NCBI GenBank assembly: GCA_021766785.1
Contig: JAICBP010000084.1
Coordinates: 437,951-499,346, forward strand
Reading direction: 5' to 3'
DNA: 61,396 nt
Source: Sulfurimonas sp. endosymbiont of Alviniconcha boucheti
GTDB lineage: Bacteria; Campylobacterota; Campylobacteria; Campylobacterales; Sulfurimonadaceae
Below the pieces are notes generated by a model, which worked only from the letters and a program-made list of their open reading frames with translations, was not told the origin of the DNA and did no database searches. Both the position numbers and the translations under genes were made by a program. Below, piece after piece: positions 2,823-61,396 of the stretch. The number at the start of each line of letters is the position of its first letter. Position 1 is the first letter of the stretch.

Positions 2823-4004
2823 CTACTCTGGTTTTGTAATGAGTTGTGCTACACCTGGTAGAATTTTTCCTTCTAGTAACTCTAGCGAAGCACCTCCACC
2901 TGTTGAGATAAACGTCATCTCTTCATCTACATTAATGCGTTGGACAAGGTCTGCTGTATCTCCTCCACCCACTACTGTTGTTGCATACGAGTCTGCTACA
3001 AAATGGGCTATCTTACTAGATCCACGAGCAAATTTTTCCATCTCATAGACACCCATAGGACCATTCCAAAGTACAGTTTGAACATCATTTAGTCCCTCAC
3101 GATAGAGTCTTACAGTCGCAGGACCGATGTCAAGACCCATCCATCCCTTTGGAATCTCTTGTGCTGTTACTATCTTGCTTACCGCATCTTCAGCAAACTT
3201 ATCTGCTGCTACTACATCTATAGGAAGATAAAACTTTACACCGAGCTTTTTCGCCTCATCCATAATATTTTGCGCTTCTTCTAAAAGCTCATCCTCAACA
3301 AGTGACGCTCCAATATCATAACCGAGTTGTTTGAGAAATGTAAACGCCATCCCTCCACCTATAAAGACTTTGTCCACCTTTGGAAGAAGATTGACTAGAG
3401 CTTCAAGTTTTCCTGAAACTTTACTCCCACCAACTATAGCTGCAAAAGGACGTACTGGTTCATCAATAAGCTTTCCAAAGAACTGTATCTCACGCTCTAG
3501 TAAAAATCCAGCAGCTTTATGTTTATCATCAAAAAACTTCGTAATGCCTTCTACTGAAGCATGCGATCTATGACTTACACCAAAGGCATCATTCACATAA
3601 AAATCTGCCATAGAAGCAAGTTTTTCACTAAACTTGGCATCATTTTTTGTCTCACCCATCTCATAACGGATATTTTCTAAAAGAAGTACTTCATGACGTG
3701 GTAAGTCAGCAGCAAGCTTTAGTGTAGCATCATCTACTACAGCAGGTGCTAATGCAACATGGCGTTTAAGAAGTTGTTGAAGTCTTCTTGCTACCGGTGC
3801 AAGAGAGTACTTTTCATCTACTTCACCAGAAGCTAAGATAACTGCACAGTCCTGATCTAGGCAGTAGTTTATAGTTGCTACAGCAGATCGAATACGTCTA
3901 TCATCAGAGATATTTCCAAATTCATCCATTGGAACATTAAAATCACAACGGATAAATACTTTTTTGTCTTTAATCTCTAACTTTTTTATATTTAATAATT
4001 TCAA
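2823..4004 (-). CDS. pgk: Phosphoglycerate kinase
   Basis: Transfers phosphate between 1,3-bisphosphoglycerate and ADP. The N-domain shows [12 protein letters not shown] and ENIRYEMGE, and the C-domain shows [20 protein letters not shown] and the nucleotide loop [12 protein letters not shown] and [14 protein letters not shown]. The family N-terminus is [20 protein letters not shown], so I place the start at a TTG at 4004. An ATGAGGG just upstream then supplies the Shine-Dalgarno bases (GAGGG). In-frame ATGs at 4016 and 4040 would add 4 or 12 residues that do not look like the family. Predicted length is 393 residues, the normal size. It lies between gap and tpiA. Confidence 0.93.
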
Positions 4005-6029: not shown

Positions 6030-7434
6030 GTTTAGACTGAGAAAGCAACTGATTTTCTAGTATATCTCTGTAATTATAAATAGACTCCACATATTTTACA
6101 GCTTCATTTCCTCTTGAGTAGCCATACTTCAAACCTCTATAGTATTTCTTCTGTGAAAGCAGAGGAAGTACTACTTTTAGATCACTCCATATATTTTCAT
6201 TAAGTCCTGTCTCTTTTGCAAGAATCTGTGCATCTCTAATATGTCCCATCCCTATATCATATGCGGCAAGTGCAAATTTGAGCCGATTTTCTCCTTTTAC
6301 CTTATCATCTACAAGCTTTAACATCTGTTTAATATGTCGTGTACCGCCAACTATACTCTCTTTTGGATTAAGTCTATTTTTGACACCAAGGAGTTTTGCT
6401 GTATGGCGAGTAAGCATCATTAATCCTCTTACACCTGTAAAACTTTTAGCTTTTGCATTCCAATGAGACTCTTGGTAAGAGATAGCAGCAATAAGTGTCC
6501 ATGGAATACCAAATTTCGTTGCCGCTTCTTGAAAAATTTTTTTGTATTTTGAAAGTCTTGATTTTATACGCTTATAAAATACCTTTATATTATAATAATC
6601 GAAAAAGAGAACATAAGAGTAGTAGTGATCTTTAAGTTGAGCTATCTTTCCTTGCTGATTATAGAAGTTTAACCATGTGTACATATCTTCTTTAAGATAT
6701 GTTGCACCAGCTGGAAGAATCCATGCAAGTTGCTCACGACCACTGATAGAAAATGCCATAGCGATTTCAGGATAATAACGTAGGTTCAAAGCATAAATAT
6801 TTGAATCGACTATGGTGCAGTCTATTTGATGTTTAGAGACTTTTTCTAAAATTTCCTCTGTTGAAAGATCTTTTGTATAAGTAGCATTTATATCAAAACC
6901 ATCATTTTTTAAGGAGATAATAGTCTCTTTATAACTTGTCTGATCCCCTACTAAGATGTTGAGACCAGCTAAATCTTCAATATCACGTGGAAAGATATTT
7001 TTATTTAACATATCTCGATGACAAACAACTTGTTCTTGTATTTCAAAATAGGAAGGACCAAAATAGTATTTTTTTTCTCGTAATGGCGTTTTTGTCAATG
7101 ATGCGGAGGTAATATCTATATCACTATCTTTACTTAGTTCTAATGCTTCTGCTATAGTATGTGCTGTTTTTATTTTAAGTTTCACTCCAAGATGTTTTGC
7201 GTACTCTTTAAGAAGATCATACTCAAAGCCTTGTTCCCCATCTACACCGATATAATAAGTTGTAGGACCATTTAAAAGTACTACACTCAGTACTTTTTTT
7301 CGTTTTATTTTCTCTAAATAAGAGATCTTTTTTATCTTTTTTCCTGGAGTATAGGCACTATGACTTAACCATCCAAAAATGAAGAGAGAAGATGCAAAAA
7401 AGCTAGAGAGCAAGAGGTACGATATTTTATTCAT
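6010..7434 (-). CDS. mltF: MltF-like membrane-bound lytic transglycosylase
   Basis: A 474-residue protein starting with a membrane anchor or signal (residues 5-25). Residues about 45-270 form a periplasmic solute-binding fold, with [32 protein letters not shown] and [15 protein letters not shown]. Residues about 300-455 form a goose-lysozyme-like SLT domain with the catalytic glutamate in [14 protein letters not shown] near residue 323 and the phrases [13 protein letters not shown] and [13 protein letters not shown]. This is the MltF architecture, which cleaves the glycan strands of peptidoglycan from the outer-membrane side. The 3' end overlaps nadD-rsfS by 20 bases in convergent orientation, and the histidine kinase gene lies 23 bases upstream. 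Confidence 0.85.
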
Positions 7435-9597: not shown

Positions 9598-10699
<1,102 letters not shown>

Positions 10700-10772
10700 T
10701 ATTAGTTTTATAATTATAGAAGATTTTATTTAAGTAAATCCAAATGAGATTTTTGCTCAAAAACTGCCAATA

Positions 10773-10970
10773 TTTGAAAAAGTTATCTTGACTTATTGGG
10801 TGTATTATCGTACAGATCAAAGTTTAAAATTTGTAGACTGATAGAAGAAAAACAGTACAAAAACAAAACAATTTTAAACATCAAACCATAAAATAAAGAG
10901 TAAAGATGTAGCATATAGTAACAAGTGTTTAGAAAATTAGCTTTTTGAAATTGTTACCTTGACTTATTGG
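10773..10970 (+). repeat. 27-base direct repeat (two copies, 24/27 identical) upstream of the unknown gene
   Basis: Copies at 10773-10799 and 10944-10970 share TTTGAAA, then GTTAYCTTGACTTATTGG, and differ at three positions. Starts are 171 bases apart on the same strand. Each copy is followed within a few bases by a TA-rich -10-like hexamer (TATTAT, TATATT). The arrangement suggests two promoters or two sites for one regulator ahead of the gene at 11021. Confidence 0.55.
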
Positions 10971-29783: not shown

Positions 29784-30383
29784 TTAAAGTAGATTAGATT
29801 GTAATTTTATTAAATCTCTATAATCCATATTATCAGCTTTTTTCAAAGCATTTATATACTCATCTCTATGTAAATTTTCTTTTGATAATAAATTTTCATT
29901 CCATTTTGTGGGTTCTAAACTATTTTGTTTTAGATAAATATTTGCCAACATTCTACTCCATCTACCATTACCATTTTTAAAAGGATGGATTTGTACTGCT
30001 CTATGATGAAGTCTTGAAGCTATCTCGATAATATCAAAACTTTTATTTTTTTCCCAATATTCTAAATCATCTACAAGTTTTTTTAACTCTGTGCTTACTA
30101 AATAAGCTTTAACACCGATACTTAACTCAACTTGTCTTATTTTTCCTGCCCATTCCCAAACATCTCCAAACATATCAAAATGAAGTTTTAAAAACCATTC
30201 ATAAGTAAAAGGAGCTAATTTTTTATCAGGTTTTATTGATAGATATTTTAAAGTAGCTTTTGTAATATTTTTTGCTTCAAATAAATATACATCTTGTAAA
30301 GTATATTGTTTATTTGTATCAAGTTTTAAACCTGATATATCATCTGCATATGTTGCACCTTTGATTTTAGTTGTATCTTTCAT
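29784..30383 (-). CDS. Fic-domain protein (AMPylating or related transferase)
   Basis: A 199-residue Fic protein. The catalytic loop HPFKNGNGRWSR matches HPFx(D/N)GNGRxxR exactly. The flanking text LHFDMFGDVWEWAGKIR and ASRLHHRAVQIHPF is close to the 'mobile mystery protein B' group of Fic enzymes. Fic proteins transfer AMP or other phosphate groups to hydroxyl residues of target proteins. No inhibitory (S/T)xxxE(G/N) helix is seen in this chain, so control may come from a partner. An HTH gene precedes it by 8 bases on the same strand, a toxin-regulator arrangement. Confidence 0.88.
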   Translation of the reverse strand: MKDTTKIKGATYADDISGLKLDTNKQYTLQDVYLFEAKNITKATLKYLSIKPDKKLAPFTYEWFLKLHFDMFGDVWEWAGKIRQVELSIGVKAYLVSTELKKLVDDLEYWEKNKSFDIIEIASRLHHRAVQIHPFKNGNGRWSRMLANIYLKQNSLEPTKWNENLLSKENLHRDEYINALKKADNMDYRDLIKLQSNLL

Positions 30384-30391
30384 ATTTTATA

Positions 30392-30772
30392 TTAACTTGC
30401 CCATAAATTTTTTTGATATTTTCCAGTTAAAAACTGTTTTTTTGTATCTTCTATTAAAATATTTAAATTACTTTTTTCTAAACCTTGCATTTCTAATGAT
30501 GATGTATCTTGAACTAAAGATACAATGTATAGTGCTTTTTGTTCAGCTCTTTGTTTCTTTAAAGTATCTATATCAACAACTTCATTACCTGCAAAATCTA
30601 ATCCTAATAAGTTTGTAATCTTTTCAACTGTACTAAGCTTAACATCATCCCCACTAAAAAATCTTGATATAGTTCTATACCCAAGATTTGAAAGTTTAGA
30701 AAGATTTTCAATTGTAATGCCAATTTCTTCTTTTCTAGCTTTCACTTTTTGTAATAAATGTAATCTAGTCAT
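30392..30772 (-). CDS. XRE-type helix-turn-helix regulator paired with Fic
   Basis: A 126-residue protein from ATG at 30772 (MTRLHLLQKVKARKEEIG). The helix-turn-helix is TIENLSKLSNLGYRTISRFF, followed by KLSTVEKITNLLGLDF as in XRE/Cro proteins. The C-terminal half is helical (LKKQRAEQKALYIVSLVQDT) and may contact the Fic protein. The frame extends upstream to 30832 but the added 20 residues are poor in regulator character. It ends 8 bases before the Fic gene, so likely autoregulates the pair. Confidence 0.8.
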   Translation of the reverse strand: MTRLHLLQKVKARKEEIGITIENLSKLSNLGYRTISRFFSGDDVKLSTVEKITNLLGLDFAGNEVVDIDTLKKQRAEQKALYIVSLVQDTSSLEMQGLEKSNLNILIEDTKKQFLTGKYQKNLWAS

Positions 30773-30959
30773 AATACATACCTTAAAATTAAATGTATAT
30801 TTATTATGCCATAAGTGGCTTAAAAAAATCAAGTTTATTTTTAACTTTATATGGACATTTGATTATAAAGTAAGAAAATAAGGTATATAATGCCCCTAAA
30901 ATCTAAGACAGCAATTCAGTAGAATTTATTTTCAAAAAAGTTAAAATAATTAACTTTTT

Positions 30960-31331
30960 CTAATTTGAGAGCTTATCTATCAATAAAGATATTTTACTTT
31001 CTAAATCATCTAACTTCTCATCACAAATCATAAAAACTGTTTCAGAGTCTATATCTATGTAGTGATGAGTTATTATCTCTCTTGTTTTGATAATGTTACT
31101 CCAATATGTTTTAGTAGCAACTTCTAACAAGAACTCTCTATCTCTCTTATCTATATTTTTTAATGCTTCCCCAATAGACTGTAATCGCATAGAGATAGAG
31201 TCTAGCTTCATCATCCCATCTTTGCTATACATAAAGTCATCACTACTGCTAATGTCCTCAAATCTATCTTTAATCATCTCAATACTCTCAAGGATGAATT
31301 TTAATAGCTCTAAATTATTCGCTTTATCCAT
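30960..31331 (-). CDS. hepT: HepT-like HEPN-domain toxin RNase
   Basis: A 123-residue helical protein of the DUF86/HepT family. The HEPN active motif Rx4HxY is read in KTREIITHHYIDIDSET. HepT toxins act as RNases and are neutralised by MntA, which AMPylates the tyrosine of this motif. The start overlaps the upstream nucleotidyltransferase gene by 8 bases, the usual MntA-HepT order. Confidence 0.88.
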   Translation of the reverse strand: MDKANNLELLKFILESIEMIKDRFEDISSSDDFMYSKDGMMKLDSISMRLQSIGEALKNIDKRDREFLLEVATKTYWSNIIKTREIITHHYIDIDSETVFMICDEKLDDLESKISLLIDKLSN

Positions 31332-31614
31332 AAATCACATCTTTTTGAATATTGGCAATGATAACTTGATTGTTATTTTTATGTTTATGAAACAAATCTA
31401 TCTTTTTGTGATACAACTCTTCAAGATAATTCCAAAGTCCTGCAAGATTATCAAATGTTTTATGTTTAAACTCTACATAAATATCAATATCACTCTCTTT
31501 AGTTTGCTTATCTTTTGCATAGCTACCAAATAAACCTATCTTATCGACCTCAAATTCTTTCTCAATATAAGGTTTGTTATCTGCTAATTTACTTAATATT
31601 TCATTTTTAGTCAT
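31324..31614 (-). CDS. mntA: MntA-like minimal nucleotidyltransferase antitoxin
   Basis: A 96-residue MNT protein from ATG at 31614, behind a strong AAGGAGG. The signature GSx10DxD is exact: GSYAKDKQTKESDID, with the third acidic residue in YVEFKH. In the known type VII toxin-antitoxin system MntA adds AMP to HepT. A longer frame to 31638 would place the ribosome-binding site inside the gene, so it is rejected. Confidence 0.88.
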   Translation of the reverse strand: MTKNEILSKLADNKPYIEKEFEVDKIGLFGSYAKDKQTKESDIDIYVEFKHKTFDNLAGLWNYLEELYHKKIDLFHKHKNNNQVIIANIQKDVIYG

Positions 31615-31654
31615 ATTCTTAAACCTCCTTATTCTCAATTCAAATTTTGAGTCT

Positions 31655-31861: not shown

Positions 31862-31950
31862 TGGTGGACCCTCAGGGATTCGAACCCTGGGAGGTGTGAC
31901 CCTCGCCGGTTTTCAAGACCGGTGCATTCGACCAACTCTGCCAAAGATCC
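31862..31950 (-). tRNA. tRNA-Ser (anticodon TGA)
   Basis: The minus strand gives a class II tRNA of 89 bases with encoded CCA. The acceptor GGATCTT pairs with AGGGTCC (three G-U wobbles counted in). The anticodon loop is CTTGAAA, followed by a long variable arm and the T-arm CAGGGTTCGAATCCCTG. Its 3' end faces the accessory island. Confidence 0.93.
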
Positions 31951-31979
31951 ACATCTATTTTATTATAAACTATATAAAA

Positions 31980-32053
31980 TGGAGGTGCCACCCAGATTTG
32001 AACTGGGGATAGCAGCTTTGCAGGCTGCGGCCTTACCACTTGGCGATGGCACC
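31980..32053 (-). tRNA. tRNA-Cys (anticodon GCA)
   Basis: 74 bases with encoded CCA. The acceptor GGTGCCA pairs with TGGCACC, the anticodon arm is CAGCCTGCAAAGCTG, and the T-arm is CCCAGTTCAAATCTGGG. It is 27 bases from the tRNA-Leu gene. Confidence 0.95.
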
Positions 32054-32076
32054 AGTCAATTTATCTTTCACATCGA

Positions 32077-32163
32077 TGGTGCCCGGAGCCGGACTTGAAC
32101 CGGCACAGTATTGCTACCGGGGGATTTTAAGTCCCCTGCGTCTACCAATTTCGCCATCCGGGC
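32077..32163 (-). tRNA. tRNA-Leu (anticodon TAA)
   Basis: 87-base class II tRNA with encoded CCA. The acceptor GCCCGGA pairs with TCCGGGC, the anticodon loop is CTTAAAA within GGGGA and TCCCC, and the T-arm is GCCGGTTCAAGTCCGGC. Confidence 0.95.
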
Positions 32164-32203
32164 ATCTATCTATGAAATTATAGTTTTATAATATTAAATT
32201 AAA

Positions 32204-32278
32204 TGGAGCGGGAAACGAGGTTCGAACTCGCGACCCCAACCTTGGCAAGGTTATGCTCTACCACTGAGCTATTCCCGC
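32204..32278 (-). tRNA. tRNA-Gly (anticodon GCC)
   Basis: 75 bases with encoded CCA. The acceptor GCGGGAA pairs with TTCCCGC, the anticodon arm is AACCTTGCCAAGGTT, and the T-arm is GCGAGTTCGAACCTCGT. It is first in the four-tRNA cluster on the minus strand (Gly-Leu-Cys-Ser). Confidence 0.95.
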
Positions 32279-41762: not shown

Positions 41763-42545
41763 ATGCGTACAAAGATCATAAATTTTTCAAACTACTCTTC
41801 TTTGAAAATAGGTGGATGTTTTGAGGTTGCTCTTCTTGAAGATGACTTTTCAAATATTAATGAGTACTACCTTATAGGCTCTTGCAATAACACACTAATT
41901 GGCATAAACCCACCACCATTGATGCTACTCTCTAAAATGTACGACTATATCAAAATAGAAGATGGCGTTTTAAAGATAGGAGGAGCAACTCCTTCTGGAA
42001 AGATTGCCTCTTTCTGTAAAAAGAATAATATAGCAAACTTTGAGTTTCTCTCTCATCTTCCAGGAAAACTTGGGGGGCTTGTTTATATGAATGCAGGTCT
42101 CAAAGAGTTTGAGATTTTTAATCATCTTATTGAGATAAAAACACCAAATGGTACAGTTTTAAAAAAAAATATAGAGTATGGGTATAGATATACAGATATA
42201 ACAGTACCTATACTTGAAGCATCATTTACTCTGCAAGAAGGGTATATGCTAGAAAAAGTGGAACTATTTAAAAATATGCGAAGTAACCAGCCCTCAGAAC
42301 CAAGTGCAGGAAGTTGTTTTAAAAATCCTGTAGGAGATTATGCTGGCAGACTTATAGAAGAGGTTGGACTTAAAGGAGTAATGCGAGGTGCTATCTGCTT
42401 TAGCGAGAAGCATGCAAATTTTCTTATCAACAATGGTGGCGGAGAGTTCGAAGATGCAATCTGGCTTATAAAAGAGGCTCAAGCACGAGTCAAAGAGAAG
42501 TTTAACATCGAGCTTGAATGTGAAATAGTTATACTAGAAACGTAG
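41763..42545 (+). CDS. murB: UDP-N-acetylenolpyruvoylglucosamine reductase
   Basis: A 260-residue flavoprotein reducing enolpyruvyl-UDP-GlcNAc in peptidoglycan synthesis. The FAD-binding LSHLPGKLGGLVYMNAG and the catalytic SAGSCFKNPVGDYAGRLIEE (Ser proton donor) are visible, as are GAICFSEKHANFLINNGG and a final CEIVILET. The short form is typical of Campylobacterota. The start follows fliQ by 10 bases. The last 12 bases overlap the convergent outer-membrane gene, and degenerate copies of this 3' end recur between the following array members. Confidence 0.94.
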   Translation: MRTKIINFSNYSSLKIGGCFEVALLEDDFSNINEYYLIGSCNNTLIGINPPPLMLLSKMYDYIKIEDGVLKIGGATPSGKIASFCKKNNIANFEFLSHLPGKLGGLVYMNAGLKEFEIFNHLIEIKTPNGTVLKKNIEYGYRYTDITVPILEASFTLQEGYMLEKVELFKNMRSNQPSEPSAGSCFKNPVGDYAGRLIEEVGLKGVMRGAICFSEKHANFLINNGGGEFEDAIWLIKEAQARVKEKFNIELECEIVILET

Positions 42546-43298
42546 ATTTAGACCAGCATAAACGCCTGAAGCATTTATAACGTGAGAAAAAGCTCCTTGT
42601 ACTCTATATCCAACTTCTATAGTTGGCTTATTAGGTATAGAGGCTAGTATATAATCTACTTTTGCACGTATATCAAATCCTAGTGGTGGAATTGCCAGTT
42701 TAGCATCTGTTTCAACAACAATATTTTTTATCACGGTTTGTGCTCTACTTCGCACGTATAAAAAAGGAAAAGGTGTATCTAATAATTTCTCCTCACTATA
42801 ACCAGGAAAATTCTTTGTAGCCGATACCGTATAGGTATGTTTTAACAATCTTATTCCAAGTCCTACATCTATCATCCAAGCATTATTATCTAAAATAGTA
42901 TAATAAGGGATAAAATCATAGTGAGTAATTATAGACTTTATATTAGCAAGATCTGATGTTGTGTTAAAGTGAGCAAATTTTGATGTTTTATAGTGAGCAA
43001 AATCTGATGTTTTAATGGAATCAAAATCTCCTTGTACTTTACCTTGTTGTTCTGTTGCAGTATATTCAATTCTAATATTTGGTACAATATGGACCCAATG
43101 CTTCACTGACATCCATGCATATCCTTGTATATAAGCAGTTTCATTTGAAGTATAGGTTCTCTCCTCTTCTGTATATGAGGGGTTAATACTTGGTGAACTC
43201 ATCCATGCACCTGCACCCATCTTCATTTGTACCAAATCTGCACTTGCTATTGTAACCAAAACAGTACCAAATACAATAATTGATAATAATTTTTTCAT
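42534..43298 (-). CDS. TIGR04219-type outer-membrane beta-barrel protein, array copy 1
   Basis: 254 residues with a signal peptide (MKKLLSIIVFGTVLVTIASA) and an aromatic-ended C-terminus (SGVYAGLNLRF). Shared array phrases are MKMGAGAWMSSPS near the start, the central HYDFIPYYTILDNNAWMIDVGLGIRL split over two strands, YVRSRAQTVIKNIVVETDAK, and KVDYIL near the end. A short extra run of SDFAHYKTSKFAHFNTTSDL repeats itself internally. Good GGAGACAAAATG start. Its 3' end overlaps murB by 12 bases, so this copy most likely keeps the ancestral position. Confidence 0.85.
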   Translation of the reverse strand: MKKLLSIIVFGTVLVTIASADLVQMKMGAGAWMSSPSINPSYTEEERTYTSNETAYIQGYAWMSVKHWVHIVPNIRIEYTATEQQGKVQGDFDSIKTSDFAHYKTSKFAHFNTTSDLANIKSIITHYDFIPYYTILDNNAWMIDVGLGIRLLKHTYTVSATKNFPGYSEEKLLDTPFPFLYVRSRAQTVIKNIVVETDAKLAIPPLGFDIRAKVDYILASIPNKPTIEVGYRVQGAFSHVINASGVYAGLNLRF

Positions 43299-43416
43299 TT
43301 TGTCTCCATAAATAAGAATAGTGTATTATATCAGAGTAAATACATTTAAATTCTTAAAAAGACTCAGGCACAACTCAAAGAAATTTCAATATTGGGTTTA
43401 AATATAAAAAATTATA

Positions 43417-44127
43417 CTAAAAATATAGATTTAAACCAGCATAAACGCCTGAAGCATTTATAACATTTGAAGAATTTTCCTGTATTCTGTATCCTAGTTC
43501 TATAGTTGGATGATTAGCTATAAAGTCTAGTGTGTAATCTACTTTTGTGCGTATATCAACTCCTAGTGGTGCAATTGCCACTTTTGCATCTGACTCAATA
43601 CTAATATTTTTTATCGCAGTTTGTGCTCTAACTCGTATGTATAAAAAAGGGAAATAAAATAGTCCCCCTTCTCTACTATAACCAGAAAAAGTCCTTGTGG
43701 CTGATACTATATAACCACTCTTTATAAATTTTATACCAAGTCCTAAATCCAGGATCTTACCAGTCTTATCAAAAATATTATAATAAGGGATTAAATCAAA
43801 TTGAGTCAGTGTAGATTTTACATTAGCAAAATCTAATGTTTTAAACTTTTCAAAATCTCCTTTTACTTTACCTTCTTCTTCTGTTGAAACATACTCAAGT
43901 CTAATATTTGGTATTACAGAGACTGATTGCTTCACCGATATCCATACATATACATTTGTACTAGCAGTTTCATTCGAAATATAGGTGCTTTTTTCTTTTA
44001 TGTATGTAGTTCTAATACTTGGTGTATTCATCCATACACCCTCACCCATCTCCATATGTGTAAAATCTGCACTTACTACTGTAGCTAAGATAGTACAATA
44101 TGCAATAATTGATAGTAATTTCTTCAT
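43417..44127 (-). CDS. TIGR04219-type outer-membrane beta-barrel protein, array copy 2
   Basis: 236 residues from ATG at 44127 behind GGAG (the frame is open 13 codons further but the signal peptide begins here, MKKLLSIIAYCTILATVVSA). The barrel phrases are as in its neighbours: MEMGEGVWMNTPSIRTTYI, TQFDLIPYYNIFDKTGKIL, YIRVRAQTAIKNISIESDAK and a GVYAGLNLYF end. It is very close to copy 3 in the central part, which suggests recent duplication or gene conversion. Confidence 0.85.
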   Translation of the reverse strand: MKKLLSIIAYCTILATVVSADFTHMEMGEGVWMNTPSIRTTYIKEKSTYISNETASTNVYVWISVKQSVSVIPNIRLEYVSTEEEGKVKGDFEKFKTLDFANVKSTLTQFDLIPYYNIFDKTGKILDLGLGIKFIKSGYIVSATRTFSGYSREGGLFYFPFLYIRVRAQTAIKNISIESDAKVAIAPLGVDIRTKVDYTLDFIANHPTIELGYRIQENSSNVINASGVYAGLNLYF

Positions 44128-44238
44128 TTTTATCTCCATAAGTGTATTATAGCAAAGTAAGTACATTTAAATTCTTAAAAAGGCTTAGGCACGAATAAAA
44201 AAGAAGTTTACCATTAAACTTTAATATGAATTATCATA

Positions 44239-44952
44239 CTAAAAAGATAGATTGAGACCAGCATAAAAACCTGAAGCATTTAAAACATTATAAGCAGATC
44301 CTTGCACTCTGTAGCCTACTCCTATAGTTGGCTTATAAGGTATTAAGTCTAGTGTATAATCTACTTTTGCACGTATATCAAACCCTATGGGAGGAATTGC
44401 CACTTTAGCATCCGACTCAATACTAATATTTTTTATCGCGGTTTGTGTTTTAGCTCGTATATATAAGAAAGGAATAGGAATAGGAAAGAAGAACCCCTTA
44501 GTAGAGCCAGAAAAAGTCTTTGTAGCCGATACTGTATAGTCACTCTCTAGCAATCTTGCACCAAATCCTAAATCCAAAATCCAGTTAGTATTATCTAAAA
44601 TATTATAATAAGGTATAAGATCATACTGAGTCGTTTTATACTTTATATTAGCAAAATCTGTTGTCTTAAACTCTACAAAATCTCCTTTTATTTTACCTCG
44701 TTCTTCTGTTGAAACATACTCAAGTCTAATATTTGGTAGCAGAGAGATTAGATGCTTCACTGATACCCATGCATACCCATTTGTCGTAGCATTTTGATTA
44801 AAAATTCCAGTTTTTTTTTGTTTTGCATAGGTAAGGTTAGAAATTGGAGCATTCATCCATACACCTGCACCCATCTTAACTTGTACAAACTCTGCACTTA
44901 CTGTTGTTGCTAAAATAGTACCACATGCAAGAGTTGATAGTAATTTTTTCAA
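44239..44952 (-). CDS. TIGR04219-type outer-membrane beta-barrel protein, array copy 3 (TTG start)
   Basis: 237 residues. The signal peptide LKKLLSTLACGTILATTVSA aligns with the other copies only if the start is the TTG at 44952, which sits properly behind GGAG; the paralogues have ATG at this place. VKMGAGVWMNAPI, TQYDLIPYYNILDNTNWIL, IRAKTQTAIKNISIESDAK and GFYAGLNLSF are the shared barrel phrases. The upstream spacer is the shortest in the array. Confidence 0.82.
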   Translation of the reverse strand: MKKLLSTLACGTILATTVSAEFVQVKMGAGVWMNAPISNLTYAKQKKTGIFNQNATTNGYAWVSVKHLISLLPNIRLEYVSTEERGKIKGDFVEFKTTDFANIKYKTTQYDLIPYYNILDNTNWILDLGFGARLLESDYTVSATKTFSGSTKGFFFPIPIPFLYIRAKTQTAIKNISIESDAKVAIPPIGFDIRAKVDYTLDLIPYKPTIGVGYRVQGSAYNVLNASGFYAGLNLSF

Positions 44953-45013
44953 TTTTTTCTCCAAAAGAAATAAAGAGATGTTTTCCATCGAACTTTCATA
45001 TGAACTTATTATA

Positions 45014-45775
45014 CTAGAAAGATAGATTTAGACCAGCATAAGCACCTGAGGAATATATACTCCTTGTTGTTTTATCTTTGCTGCTATCATTGATTTCATT
45101 AAATGCTTGTATTCTATATCCTACTTCTATAGTTGGCTGAATAAAAGAGATAATATCTAATGTATAATCTACTTTTGCACGTATATCAACTCCTAGTTGT
45201 GGCATTAGTTTAGTGTCTGACTCGATGCTAATATTTGTTATTGGAGTTTGCACTCTACCTCGTACATAAAAAAGAGGAATAACACTCCATTTTGTATCAT
45301 TATGACCAGAAAAAGTCTTTGTAGCTGATACTGCATAGTCTATCTTCTGAACTTTGATGTCAAGTCCTAAATCTAATATGATCCAATTAGTATTATCTAA
45401 TATATTATAATAAGGGATAAGATCATACTGAGTCATTGTAAACTCTGCATTAGCAAAATCTAACACTTCAAAGTTTTTAAACTTTCCTTTTGCTTTACCT
45501 TGATCTTTTGTTGTAATATACTCAAATCTAATATTTGGTATTAGAGAGATTGGATGCTTTACTAACATCCATACATATCCATCTGTATTAGCAGTTTTAA
45601 TTGAAGTATAGATTCCGTCATCCACAGGAGCTAGAGAGGTGTTATATGCATATGTAAATTTGGTACTTGATCTATTCATCCATGCACCTGCACCCATCTT
45701 AACTTGTGCAAAATCTGCACTTGCTGTTGTCGCTAAAAGAGTACCACATGCAAAAGTTGATAGTAATTTTTTCAA
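45014..45775 (-). CDS. TIGR04219-type outer-membrane beta-barrel protein, array copy 4 (TTG start)
   Basis: 253 residues, again best started at a TTG (45775) that replaces the ATG of copies 1, 2 and 5 (LKKLLSTFACGTLLATTASA). It has insertions near residue 40 (NTSLAPVDDGIYTS) and before the end (NEINDSSKDKTTRS), which fall where surface loops would lie. Shared phrases are VKMGAGAWMNRSS, TQYDLIPYYNILDNTNWI and GAYAGLNLSF. Copies 4 and 5 are more alike than either is to copies 1-3. Confidence 0.82.
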   Translation of the reverse strand: MKKLLSTFACGTLLATTASADFAQVKMGAGAWMNRSSTKFTYAYNTSLAPVDDGIYTSIKTANTDGYVWMLVKHPISLIPNIRFEYITTKDQGKAKGKFKNFEVLDFANAEFTMTQYDLIPYYNILDNTNWIILDLGLDIKVQKIDYAVSATKTFSGHNDTKWSVIPLFYVRGRVQTPITNISIESDTKLMPQLGVDIRAKVDYTLDIISFIQPTIEVGYRIQAFNEINDSSKDKTTRSIYSSGAYAGLNLSF

Positions 45776-45895
45776 TTTTTTCTCCAAAAGTAATACTGAC
45801 ACATTATATCAGAGTAAATGTGCGTAAACTCTTAAAGAGGCTCAAGGCATCTCAAAAAGAAGTTTACCATTGATCCTGAGTGTGAAATAATTATA

Positions 45896-46636
45896 CTAGA
45901 AACGTAGACCTAAACCAGCATAAACACCTGAAAAATCTATACTCATCTTTGTTTTATCGTTATCGATAGAGGCATCAAATTTTTGTACTCTGTATCCTAT
46001 CTCTATTGCTGGCTGAATAATAGGCGTAATATCTAGCGTATAATCTACTTTTGCTCGTATATCATATACTGTTGAAGTACCGTTTGTTATATATTTAACA
46101 TCTGATTCAATACCAATATTTGTTATTGGGATTTGTACTCTACCTCGTACATATAAAAGAGGAATAACACTCCATGCTTTATCACTATGACCAGAAAAAC
46201 CCTTTGTTACAGATACTGTATAGTCTGTCTCTTGAATTTTTAAGTCAACCCCTAAATCTAATGTAATCCAAGCAGTATTATCTAAAATATTGTAATAAGG
46301 AATAAGATCATACTGAGTCATTGTGAACTTTGCAGTAGCCAAATTTGGTATTGTAAAATCTTTAAACCTTCCTTCTGCTTTACCTTGATCTTTCATTGTA
46401 ACATACTCAAGTCTAAGATTTGGTATTACTGGAATTGGATGCTTCACAAACATCCAGATATATCCATCTGTATTAGCAGTTTTGTCTGAAGAATAAGTTC
46501 CTTTATCTGTATATGTAAGGTTAGCATCTGGTGTATTCATCCATGCACCCGCACCCATCTCAATTCGTGCAAAATCTGCACTTGCTGTTGTAGCTAAAAC
46601 AGTACCACACGCAATAGTTGATAGCAATTTTTTCAT
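45896..46636 (-). CDS. TIGR04219-type outer-membrane beta-barrel protein, array copy 5
   Basis: 246 residues from ATG at 46636 (MKKLLSTIACGTVLATTASA signal). It is the first in transcription order. IEMGAGAWMNTPDANLTY, TQYDLIPYYNILDNTAWITL, YVRGRVQIPITNIGIESDVK and GVYAGLGLRF are the family phrases. Its 3' end is preceded by the best fossil of the murB tail. Function is unknown: such barrels are found in several marine proteobacteria, and no enzyme motif is present. Confidence 0.85.
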   Translation of the reverse strand: MKKLLSTIACGTVLATTASADFARIEMGAGAWMNTPDANLTYTDKGTYSSDKTANTDGYIWMFVKHPIPVIPNLRLEYVTMKDQGKAEGRFKDFTIPNLATAKFTMTQYDLIPYYNILDNTAWITLDLGVDLKIQETDYTVSVTKGFSGHSDKAWSVIPLLYVRGRVQIPITNIGIESDVKYITNGTSTVYDIRAKVDYTLDITPIIQPAIEIGYRVQKFDASIDNDKTKMSIDFSGVYAGLGLRF

Positions 46637-46738
46637 TTTTTTCTCCATAAGTAATAATGGTGTATTATATCAGAGTAAGTGTACTTGAATTCTTAAGAAA
46701 AGGATTTATTTAAAAAAAGGAGTAAGAAAATATACTCC

Positions 46739-46765
46739 ACCTCAGAAGAGGTAGAGGTAGAGGTA
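46739..46765 (-). terminator. Short hairpin and GAGGTA hexamer repeat past tpx
   Basis: ACCTC at 46739-46743 and GAGGT at 46748-46752 can pair around AGAA, directly followed by further GAGGTA units (three in total, 46748-46765). It lies 24-50 bases past the tpx stop. It may end tpx transcription, and the hexamer could vary in copy number. Confidence 0.35.
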
Positions 46766-46788
46766 GTTTATTAGTTAAAAGTTACTAC

Positions 46789-47292
46789 TTAACTAACAGC
46801 AGCGATTGCAGCATCATAGTTAGGTTCTTCAGTAATTTCTGGAACAATCTCTTTGTAAGTAACAATACCCTCTTCATTTACAGCAAATATTGCTCTACAA
46901 GTAACACCTGCTAAAACTGATCCACCAAGTAAAACACCATAAGCATTTGCGAAATCTTTGTTACGGAAGTCAGAAGTAACAGTTAAATCATTAATTCCTT
47001 CAGTTTGACAAAAACGTCCAGCAGCAAATGGAAGATCAAGAGAAACAATAGTTGCAGTCACATCACTAAGTGTTGCAGCTTTAGCATTGAAGTTACGAGT
47101 TTCAGTAGCACACACACCTGTGTCTAAAGAAGGAACAACGATAATAAGTTGTTTTTTACCAGTAGCTCCACCAACTACTACATCACCTAAACCATCTGAG
47201 TTTACAACAGTAATTGCTGGTGCTTTATCTCCAACATTTACTTCATTTCCTAATAATTCTACTTCTGTACCTTTAAATTTTGTTGTTGCCAT
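46789..47292 (-). CDS. tpx: Thiol peroxidase
   Basis: A 167-residue atypical 2-Cys peroxiredoxin. The peroxidatic cysteine is in SLDTGVCATETRNFN, and the resolving cysteine is in GRFCQTEGINDLTV, the Tpx spacing. ATTKFKGTEVELLGNEVNVG at the start is typical. It removes peroxides with thioredoxin as donor and adds to the peroxiredoxin at 24.4 kb. It is a single gene with AAGGAG ahead of the start. Confidence 0.94.
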   Translation of the reverse strand: MATTKFKGTEVELLGNEVNVGDKAPAITVVNSDGLGDVVVGGATGKKQLIIVVPSLDTGVCATETRNFNAKAATLSDVTATIVSLDLPFAAGRFCQTEGINDLTVTSDFRNKDFANAYGVLLGGSVLAGVTCRAIFAVNEEGIVTYKEIVPEITEEPNYDAAIAAVS

Positions 47293-59477: not shown

Positions 59478-59576
59478 ATTATAACTAAGAAAATAGGAAA
59501 AATTGACCCCGCAATAGCGGGAATCAAAGGATTAGCGAAAAGTATTGAAGATGAAAATAGTGAACTCTATTTTTAA
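59478..59576 (+). pseudogene. Short coding remnant before the SNF2 gene
   Basis: Between two minus-strand genes, the plus strand reads KKIGKIDPAIAGIKGLAKSI and EDENSELYF, then TAA. It has no start codon nearby and an in-frame stop just upstream. It looks like the C-terminus of a lost gene. The same bases form a CCCGC-AATA-GCGGG hairpin at 59508-59521. Confidence 0.3.
59508..59521. terminator. GC-rich hairpin between the surface-protein and SNF2 genes
   Basis: CCCGC at 59508-59512 and GCGGG at 59517-59521 around AATA form a strong 5-bp stem, 52 bases past the surface-protein stop. On the minus strand it is followed by CAATTTTTCC, so it may end that transcript. Confidence 0.4.
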
Positions 59577-60480
59577 TTACCAATTATAAATAAGCCCTTC
59601 TTATTATCAGTCACATAAATCTTTGTACCATCACTTGATAGAGTAACACCATATACAGCCCCAATAGCTATCTTATATGAGCCAAGCTTAGTTGGATGAG
59701 CTGGATCGCTCGTATCAACAATGACCAAATCATTAGTAGTATCAGCTAGATAAGTCTTTGTGTTATCACTTGATATAGTAACACTAAATGATCCCCCAGC
59801 TGTATCGTATGATCCAAGTTTAGTTGGATGAGCTGGATCACTTATATCTAGTATGACTAAACCATTTTCCCAATCAGCTACATAAGCCTTTGTACCATCA
59901 CTTGATAGAGTAACATTATATGCATTCCCAGCTGTATCGCATGAGCCAAGCTTAGTTGGATGAGCTGGATCACTTATATCAACTATAACTAAACCATTAG
60001 TATCATCAGCTACATAAGCCTTTGTGCCATCACTCGATAGAGTAATACCCATTGACTTCCCAGCTGTATCGTATGAGGCAAGCTTAGTTGGATGAGCTGG
60101 ATTACTTATATCTAGTATGACTAAACCATCTTCCCAATCAGCTAGATAAGCCTTTGTACTATCACTTGATAGTATAACATGTCTTGCAGTCCCAGCTGTG
60201 CCATATGAGCCAAGCTTAGTTGGATGAGCTGGATTACTTATATCTAGTATGACTAAACCATTATAACCATCAGCTACATAAGCTTTTGATCCATCACTTG
60301 ATAAAGTAACATTTTGTGAACTCCCTTTTGTATTGTATGAGCCAAGTTTAGTTGGATTTGATGGGTCGCTTATATCAACGATGACTAAACCATTACTCCA
60401 ATCAGCTACATAAGCCTTTGAGCCATTACTTGATAGAGTAACACTTACTGCAAACCCTGCTGTCTCTAATGAGCCAATCG
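59573..60480 (-). repeat. Seven tandem 132-bp repeats encoding LVIVD blades
   Basis: The phrase GTTGGATGAGCTGGA recurs with starts at 59691, 59823, 59955, 60087 and 60219 and a variant at 60351, exactly 132 bases apart. Central copies are nearly the same at the DNA level, so copy number could change by recombination. Confidence 0.9.
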
Positions 60481-61396
60481 TATATAGATTAGCAGTATCT
60501 ACCATTATCTGTACTTCTTTTCTTGTAGCAGGGGTGCTAAAGTTGTTGTCAGCAGATGTTATATAGTCTCGATACTTCTGTATATTATCTTCATCTATAT
60601 TGTTAAGTGATGGAAAGATACTCCTTAGATCTGCAACTGTTATAGTTGAACTAGCATTATGATGATCTTGTCCAATACGTACAAGAGTAGCCTTTGAAGC
60701 ATTAACTGCATCTATCATACTCTGCAGTTCAGCTCTTGTAGCCGGTGAACTAAAGCTTGTATCTGCACTTGCTATATAGCTACGATAACTATCTTGATAA
60801 TCATCATTTATATTCTCAAGTGCTGGAGTAATAGCTTTTAGTTGTGCAACTGTTACAGTTGATTTATGATTACGGTGTTCATTACCTATCACTTTGAGGA
60901 TACTAACTAATCTCTCTGCTGGCGTTTGATCTTTTATACAACGGACAGAGAATCCACGCCCACGGTAGCTATTACTATAGTCATTTGCATCCAGAGTACC
61001 GTTATGAAACCATAGGTCATGCGGGTATAGTGCGTTTTCTATTGAACCAGTCCAGTACATTCCCTCATTACCTGCATAACCTACACTGTCGCTTTTCCAG
61101 CGCATACCAGCTGTAGGCAGTTTCAGGTCACTTGACATAGAACCGCTATGATTTTGTGAGCTCCAAGTTTGTGTCTCTACATAAAATTCATTAGCAGTAT
61201 CATTTGCTTTATTTGGATTTAGTGGTAATCTGTATCCTACTGGACAGACATTGTTTGCGCTTGATTCGCTTGCCCATAGAGTATCATCTCGGTTTACTCT
61301 CCAATCACTTTGTTTGATAAAGAGTGAATCAGATGGATTATCATTTTTTGTATCTGTGTCACCGTATCTTCCAGTTCCTGTAGTAGCATCTGTCCA
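59573..61396 (-). CDS. Surface-type protein with FISUMP-like domain and seven LVIVD propeller repeats (N-terminus beyond window)
   Basis: The frame is open from the window end to 59573, giving 607 residues of a larger protein. The first ~130 residues have NNVCPVGYRLP, GMYWTGSIENALYPHDLWF and GRGFSVRCIKD, the pattern of the Fibrobacter succinogenes major paralogous domain. Then come two similar ~60-residue helical units (each with ITSADNNFSTPATRKE-like text). The last 305 residues are seven copies of a 44-residue LVIVD repeat (LVILDISNPAHPTKLGSY), enough for one seven-bladed propeller. It is probably exported and adhesin-like. An ATG at 61138 is internal, not the start. Confidence 0.8.
   Translation of the reverse strand, partial: WTDATTGTGRYGDTDTKNDNPSDSLFIKQSDWRVNRDDTLWASESSANNVCPVGYRLPLNPNKANDTANEFYVETQTWSSQNHSGSMSSDLKLPTAGMRWKSDSVGYAGNEGMYWTGSIENALYPHDLWFHNGTLDANDYSNSYRGRGFSVRCIKDQTPAERLVSILKVIGNEHRNHKSTVTVAQLKAITPALENINDDYQDSYRSYIASADTSFSSPATRAELQSMIDAVNASKATLVRIGQDHHNASSTITVADLRSIFPSLNNIDEDNIQKYRDYITSADNNFSTPATRKEVQIMVDTANLYTIGSLETAGFAVSVTLSSNGSKAYVADWSNGLVIVDISDPSNPTKLGSYNTKGSSQNVTLSSDGSKAYVADGYNGLVILDISNPAHPTKLGSYGTAGTARHVILSSDSTKAYLADWEDGLVILDISNPAHPTKLASYDTAGKSMGITLSSDGTKAYVADDTNGLVIVDISDPAHPTKLGSCDTAGNAYNVTLSSDGTKAYVADWENGLVILDISDPAHPTKLGSYDTAGGSFSVTISSDNTKTYLADTTNDLVIVDTSDPAHPTKLGSYKIAIGAVYGVTLSSDGTKIYVTDNKKGLFIIGN

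Follow-up and report, generated by a model that had tools for sequence, protein, structure and literature searches.

A tandem array of five outer membrane β-barrel genes in a Sulfurimonas symbiont with decayed pieces of the neighboring murB gene in its spacers

The closest described counterparts of the locus presented here are tandem duplications and amplifications of bacterial genes. A two-step model, in which a founding duplication is followed by RecA-dependent expansion, is set out in the excerpt available of PMC11721125, where amplification junctions are described either with microhomology or with none; likewise, an excerpt of PMC11964449 describes relaxed purifying selection when two gene copies are present. 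The locus to be compared with these lies in a window of 61,396 nucleotides, the whole stretch of DNA analyzed and the basis of all coordinates given for it, from the Sulfurimonas sp. endosymbiont of Alviniconcha boucheti (GCA_021766785.1, contig JAICBP010000084.1), in which five genes for an outer membrane β-barrel protein stand head to tail on the minus strand between murB and tpx. As in the amplifications of the PMC11721125 excerpt, its units are head-to-tail, share a novel junction, and leave unique flanks at the two ends; those amplifications are drug-resistance cases, however, whereas this array is old, diverged, and kept, its copies sharing 71–80% nucleotide identity. The array very probably arose by a single founding tandem duplication at murB and expanded by exchange, with decay of the murB pieces and weakly constrained divergence of the proteins. 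Literature searches on the protein family TIGR04219, on tandem duplications with truncated neighbors or remnants, and on tandem outer membrane duplications in Sulfurimonas did not find this case, and the papers naming TIGR04219, as far as their excerpts tell, concern Aeromonas or Photobacterium.

The five genes are of ∼240–260 codons each, and the open reading frame is intact in all of them. The convergent murB (41763–42545, plus strand; NF010479, 368.8 bits against a cut-off of 273) is likewise an intact open reading frame, the last 12 bases of which are shared with the 3′ end of copy 1 (42534–43298), a gene with an ATG start preceded by GGAG. Copies 2 (43417–44127) and 5 (45896–46636) also start with ATG, whereas TTG is the start of copy 3 (44239–44952), where it stands behind GGAG, and of copy 4 (45014–45775). 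Beyond copy 5 lies tpx (46789–47292, minus strand), the ancestral upstream neighbor, annotated as a thiol peroxidase from a distant match.

All four spacers between the array genes contain a decayed piece of the murB 3′ end, 45–63 bases in length. When the part of the murB tail that does not overlap copy 1 (42420–42533) was locally aligned with the spacer regions (43299–43416, 44134–44238, 44962–45013, and 45785–45895), the scores were 54, 65, 44, and 75, respectively, and none was matched in 2000 shuffles per spacer that preserved dinucleotides or reached by any control segment of equal length taken from either strand elsewhere in the window (0/3032, 0/3034, 0/3038, and 0/3034). Chance similarity between AT-rich segments, the outcome that would have undone the proposal of an earlier note that these spacers resemble the murB tail, is thereby ruled out. 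On the plus strand the fossils occupy 43355–43416 in spacer 1, 3′ of copy 2 and joined to copy 1 upstream sequence (14 of 56 sites mismatched with murB); 44176–44238 in spacer 2, 3′ of copy 3 (13 of 57); 44969–45013 in spacer 3, 3′ of copy 4 and shortened by deletion (13 of 45); and 45833–45895 in spacer 4, 3′ of copy 5 (11 of 57). The last is the best preserved, as the earlier note had recognized near 45851–45905, its true extent being longer and followed by the 12 bases of the murB/array-gene overlap. A repeat finder run without any indication of these pieces pairs 42466–42527 with 44172–44233 at 76%. Searched by BLAST against its own genome, the murB tail finds matches confined to the array, namely itself and three of the four fossils, the weakest there (43355–43416) being missed at E ≤ 1; the only working murB is thus the one that abuts copy 1, also as proposed. 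The region upstream of copy 5 (46649–46788) scores 16, a chance level equaled or exceeded by 1893 of 2000 shuffles.

The way in which the fossils are joined to the genes bears directly on how the array was founded. In spacers 1, 2, and 4, the gene-upstream sequence (AAATTCTTAA or similar) runs directly into the murB tail at an identical join point; spacer 3, of 52 bases, has lost this stretch through a deletion that removed the copy 3 promoter together with the join and the beginning of the fossil. Because the spacers run from the upstream copy into the murB tail, the repeat unit comprises promoter, gene, and murB tail, and with the same join recurring in three of the four spacers, a single founding tandem duplication accounts for those three. 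The original flanks are unique to the two ends of the array, intact murB being found solely at copy 1 and the upstream side of copy 5 being free of fossil. Two propositions of the earlier note, that the end of the convergent neighbor was part of what was duplicated and that the fossils mark the duplication boundary, therefore hold. By comparison of the junctions, the founding duplication broke on the murB side in a zone at 42465–42478 and on the upstream side in one at 46690–46703, within the ancestral flank that survives at copy 5 alone (plus-strand numbering). Microhomology was considered as the demonstrated cause of the founding join and was set aside, the similarity of the break sites being at chance level.

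A murB piece in every spacer could also have been acquired through repeated independent duplications, each taking up a fresh piece, and duplications of the murB end do recur in the genus. In Sulfurimonas sp. 355-202_metabat1_scaf2bin.007 (locus L091), the order is tpx, a full barrel gene, a PhoX-like gene, a cytochrome-P460-like gene, and a barrel 3′ piece abutting murB. An exact direct repeat of 408 bases (6472–6879 and 10515–10922 of that locus) surrounds an insert of 3,635 bases and consists of 318 bases of the barrel gene end and 90 bases past the stop, 87 of which are murB, so that a perfect murB fossil stands behind the full barrel gene beside tpx and the truncated piece sits on the murB side. 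Because this duplication and the array have different edges, it is judged a separate event, independent of the array; it would have arisen by insertion of a segment carrying the repeat stretch, and the repeat may be an assembly artifact. In a second relative (L088), a decayed murB tail with stops lies behind a barrel gene (ending at 3054) that itself holds a stop, and no murB match was found elsewhere in the 9-kb locus; it is probably a decayed case of murB-end duplication. These two were among four that reached p of 0 of 200 when 34 flanks behind relatives' barrel genes without an adjacent murB were searched for murB pieces. The other two were rejected as fossils: the flank of L013 trivially reaches the true murB 245 bases away, and the match in L042 extends over 18 residues without a gap, contains a stop, and runs antisense to a different gene. 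Thus, at least two and probably three rearrangements of the barrel–murB junction that involved a copy of the murB end have taken place in the genus. For the array itself, repeated independent duplication is nonetheless highly improbable, as the three readable junctions coincide and independent events would differ, just as the L091 edges do. Moreover, a convincing murB fossil was found upstream of the single gene in none of 45 loci of relatives, L093 alone having p < 0.01 where 0.45 loci are expected.

The relatives also show the single-copy state from which the array would have been derived. A barrel-gene relative is held by 29 of 41 genomes searched, including that of the symbiont itself. Among 135 genomes of the genus queried with copy 3 at E ≤ 1e-20, a limit that may miss partial copies such as that of L091, 101 match and 34 do not; the symbiont has five genes (copy 1 splits into two pieces, giving six matches), 99 genomes have one match, and one (G014) has two on two contigs. 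As far as the searches reach, the five-copy array is private to this species. In 22 same-genus loci (L004–L025) with flanks of up to 1.5 kb, tpx adjoins the barrel gene in all and murB is convergent in 15. In the nine sister-clade members of the 73-row tree described below, murB lies within 450 bases in eight, the ninth being L091, which has murB past its insert. Barrel gene and murB overlap by 18 nucleotides in L065 and L096 and by 12 in L059. A convergent overlap of this kind recurs across Sulfurimonas, in these loci and in L072, L094, and others, with lengths of 4, 11, 12, 18, and 36 bases; where it is longer, the end of murB is supplied by the antisense of the last codons of the barrel gene. 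The single-copy orthologue of a few relatives (L021, L088, L106, and the G143 and G150 matches) holds an in-frame stop, reflecting either recent loss or assembly error. Viral contigs yielded no barrel protein relative, only one distant tpx relative, and the sole match among plasmids is to tpx at 1% coverage.

Which of the copies stands closest to the ancestor is a question that the trees answer differently from the earlier note, which had taken copy 1 to mark the ancestral position. The five proteins form one clade (support 100/100) apart from the genes of relatives. Within it a 27-row tree gives the ladder (5,(4,(3,(2,1)))) with supports of 100/99, 100/100, and 98/85; this tree and those of the gene halves rely on a chosen subset of sequences, and the larger 73-row tree excludes six loci (three with a stop, three short) and merges identical sequences. 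In approximately unbiased (AU) tests, a topology with copy 1 branching first, in which copies 2–5 would form one clade, is rejected (p-AU 1.5e-6), as are copies 4 and 5 as sisters (p-AU 0.002). Copy 5 has the shortest branch (0.05, compared with 0.42 for copy 1) and in the trees is nearest to the single-copy orthologues of relatives. Likewise, residues 129, 211, and 229–236 (copy 5 numbering), lost in copies 1–3, and two residues near 193–194, lost in copies 1–4, are all present in copy 5. All of the 18 orthologues printed keep 129, 190–197, and 209–213, and none lacks the entire 229–236 stretch, some being shorter there. Because of the ladder and these ancestral indel states, copy 5 is taken as the best proxy of the ancestor, one that retains ancestral sequence as well. 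In any tandem duplication, both daughters are equally old, the first keeping the old downstream flank and the last the old upstream flank; the old flanks are thus divided between the end copies, and position cannot decide which copy is ancestral.

The note had further read the graded decay of the fossils as giving a relative order of duplication. That a working murB abuts copy 1 alone and that spacer 4 is the least decayed speak for a history in which the other copies budded off from copy 1 in such an order. An order is not borne out by the decay, however: in the 43 columns shared by the five rows, fossils 1–4 differ from murB at 11, 11, 12, and 7 sites, and the contrasts are not significant (Fisher p 0.30–0.43, or 0.49–0.64 over 55 columns with spacer 3 omitted). 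Furthermore, the least decayed spacer adjoins the first-branching copy rather than a young one, and in L091 the piece on the murB side is the truncated one. Together with the rejected topology, the branch lengths, and the indel states, this leaves an origin from copy 1 with very little probability. Under homologous unequal exchange, all spacers would be copies of one first junction and hence of equal age relative to murB, because exchange between genes copies an existing spacer and never fresh murB. The fossil tree is weak (spacers 1–3 together in 50% of bootstraps, spacers 2 and 3 in 74%), and the changes shared among fossils would be weakly in line with copy 5 branching first. Fossil–fossil distances (0.30–0.67) are of the same order as the neutral distances between copies (0.36–0.60), so that the fossils act as a neutral yardstick and the duplications fall close together in time.

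The persistence of a murB piece in all four spacers might instead mean that the array gene makes use of the murB tail, as its 3′ end or terminator, the more so as the 12-base overlap encodes the protein C terminus. This alternative is quite unlikely, as no terminator-like site was found in any of the four spacers, on which ground the fossils were rejected as terminators; substitutions fall at all three murB codon positions (in an alignment whose first column is mistyped in three rows); three spacers have 1-base gaps; and the fossil–fossil distances are similar in size to the neutral distances. Two overlapping terminator-like hairpins, identified by consensus match only, do lie in the interval between tpx and copy 5 (46719–46756, minus strand).

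Several observations weigh against parts of the history favored here, that of one founding duplication with copy 5 nearest the ancestor. The last fork of the tree is not firm, since copies 2 and 3 as sisters survive the test (p-AU 0.125), and although the tree of the 5′ half repeats the ladder, that of the 3′ half agrees with it except for a weak pairing of copies 1 and 3 (65). Synonymous distances show no clear ladder, the smallest being that between copies 1 and 4 (0.36); therefore, the ladder rests mainly on amino acid changes. Copies 3 and 4, both with TTG starts, agree at 91% in the first 120 bases and at 64–85% further on, and gene conversion may have occurred between array copies. The stretches concerned, 44842–44961 and 45665–45784 at the starts of the two copies, show a pattern of likeness as if converted. 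At the parent break sites, the similarity is an imperfect one (CTTA/AAAAG) that 1674 of 5000 random placements score as highly. Of the 22 loci mentioned above, six have no murB within 1.5 kb downstream and one reaches a contig end, so the murB neighborhood is not universal in the genus. Finally, the compared set includes no strain of the same species with a differing copy number.

The repeat unit carries its own promoter-like sequence. The upstream break lies just beyond the promoter of copy 5, whose minus-strand −10 box TATAAT (46664–46669) sits in a TCTGATATAAT context common to close relatives; the core of this context recurs in 7 of 12 relatives printed (L004, L012, L017, L018, L046, L059, and L081). 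In 71 of 105 upstream regions, a set that counts one genome twice, an exact TATAAT falls within the final 75 bases, compared with 19.6 expected. The box is also kept, as a sequence match only, by copies 1 (43325–43330), 2 (44146–44151), and 4 (45803–45808), all on the minus strand. Copy 3, its own promoter spacer deleted, has a TATAAT only within the fossil of spacer 3 (45013–45008, minus strand). The stretch upstream of copy 3 (44952–45016) is a murB fossil holding, on the minus strand, both this TATAAT and an in-frame ATG (44988) that lies in antisense murB. Copy 3 probably depends on read-through from copy 4. A bolder but unlikely reading of these motifs is that, once copy 3 had lost its promoter, the antisense of the murB fossil was recruited as a control region with a new −10 box and possibly a new start codon; if it had been, a duplication scar would have turned into the control region of one gene copy.

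Constraint on the amino acid sequences of the array copies is weak. For the array as a whole, omega is 0.65 and thus lies below 1 (log likelihood −2924.99 versus −2931.68), and pairwise values are 0.47–0.92 in 10 of 10 array pairs versus 0.03–0.17 in 12 of 12 orthologue pairs, which were chosen by hand and comprise nine with a neutral distance below 1 (0.08–0.17) and three saturated ones (0.03–0.05). Amino acid differences per codon pair amount to 54% in the extracellular part, as drawn by the authors, 35% in strand cores, and 46% in periplasmic turns. In simulations of neutral decay, the open frame survives in only 0.1–2% of trials per copy; therefore, the copies have been kept. They may serve different surface functions. 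On the stem of copies 1–3, selected for testing after a free-ratio fit had been inspected, omega is 3.97, which differs from the rest (p 0.010) and is not significantly above 1 (p 0.098); a burst of change there is suggestive only, and positive selection was not accepted as proven. Innovation-amplification-divergence presupposes a selected side activity before amplification. With the schemes of divergence after duplication, that of Ohno and innovation-amplification-divergence, as far as excerpts describe them, the array shares a raised dN/dS with some constraint remaining.

All five copies match the full length of the TIGR04219 profile (NCBIfam OMP_w_GlyGly, outer membrane β-barrel) with 97.6, 85.3, 107.5, 136.6, and 183.1 bits for copies 1–5; against the curated cut-off of 105, copies 3, 4, and 5 score above and copies 1 and 2 below, the latter two being regarded from their placement as drifted members by descent. 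No Pfam family scores above its cut-off for the protein, and among PDB chains there is no significant sequence similarity (best E 0.76). The AlphaFold2 model of copy 5 is a barrel, read as ten-stranded, with a mean predicted local distance difference test (pLDDT) score of 91.9; that of copy 1 is a barrel-like chain of strands with a mean pLDDT of 85.0 and a poor stretch at 102–112. Among solved folds, the copy 5 model comes nearest to those of omptins, OpcA, and a Legionella porin (Z 17.2–19.1, the next row having 11.2), and the top ten rows superimpose with root mean square deviations of 3.1–4.3 over 193–219 residues at 10–13% identity. Omptin proteases possess catalytic Asp/His residues. The likeness of the array protein to omptins (OmpT, Pla) and OpcA lies in the predicted ten-stranded fold; it is one of architecture and does not imply function.

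Elsewhere in the window, a Fic/DOC protein with a helix-turn-helix partner (29784–30832) and a nucleotidyltransferase/HepT-like pair (30960–31638), both of toxin-antitoxin type, adjoin a cluster of four tRNA genes at 31862–32278. An LVIVD-repeat β-propeller protein of 521 amino acids is encoded at 59573–61138.

Taken in sequence, the history favored here would have begun with one TIGR04219-type, ten-stranded barrel gene, convergent to murB and overlapping its last codons as in close relatives. A founding tandem duplication would have joined a point just upstream of the promoter to a point ∼70–80 bases inside the murB 3′ end. We infer that later copies came from unequal exchange between units, the junction spacer being copied each time, so that a single functional murB would remain at one end of the array and a single copy of the original upstream region at the opposite end. 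Decay of the murB pieces followed, while the five proteins remained intact yet diverged under weak constraint, most strongly in surface loops, with copy 5 staying nearest the ancestor and more change accumulating in copies 4, then 3, 2, and 1; copy 3 later lost its promoter by deletion.

The process is a known and ordinary one, tandem duplication, with unusually clear traces, and the general principle is not new. What the locus offers is an old array with a neutral scrap of a neighboring gene in each repeat. This scrap provides a yardstick against which the five diverging proteins can be set, places the age of the array on the scale of synonymous change, and shows that the array proteins have changed faster than orthologues do. 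The locus also shows that, where two convergent genes overlap, complete tandem duplication of one carries the end of the other along, and the L091 locus suggests that this junction has been duplicated more than once in the genus.

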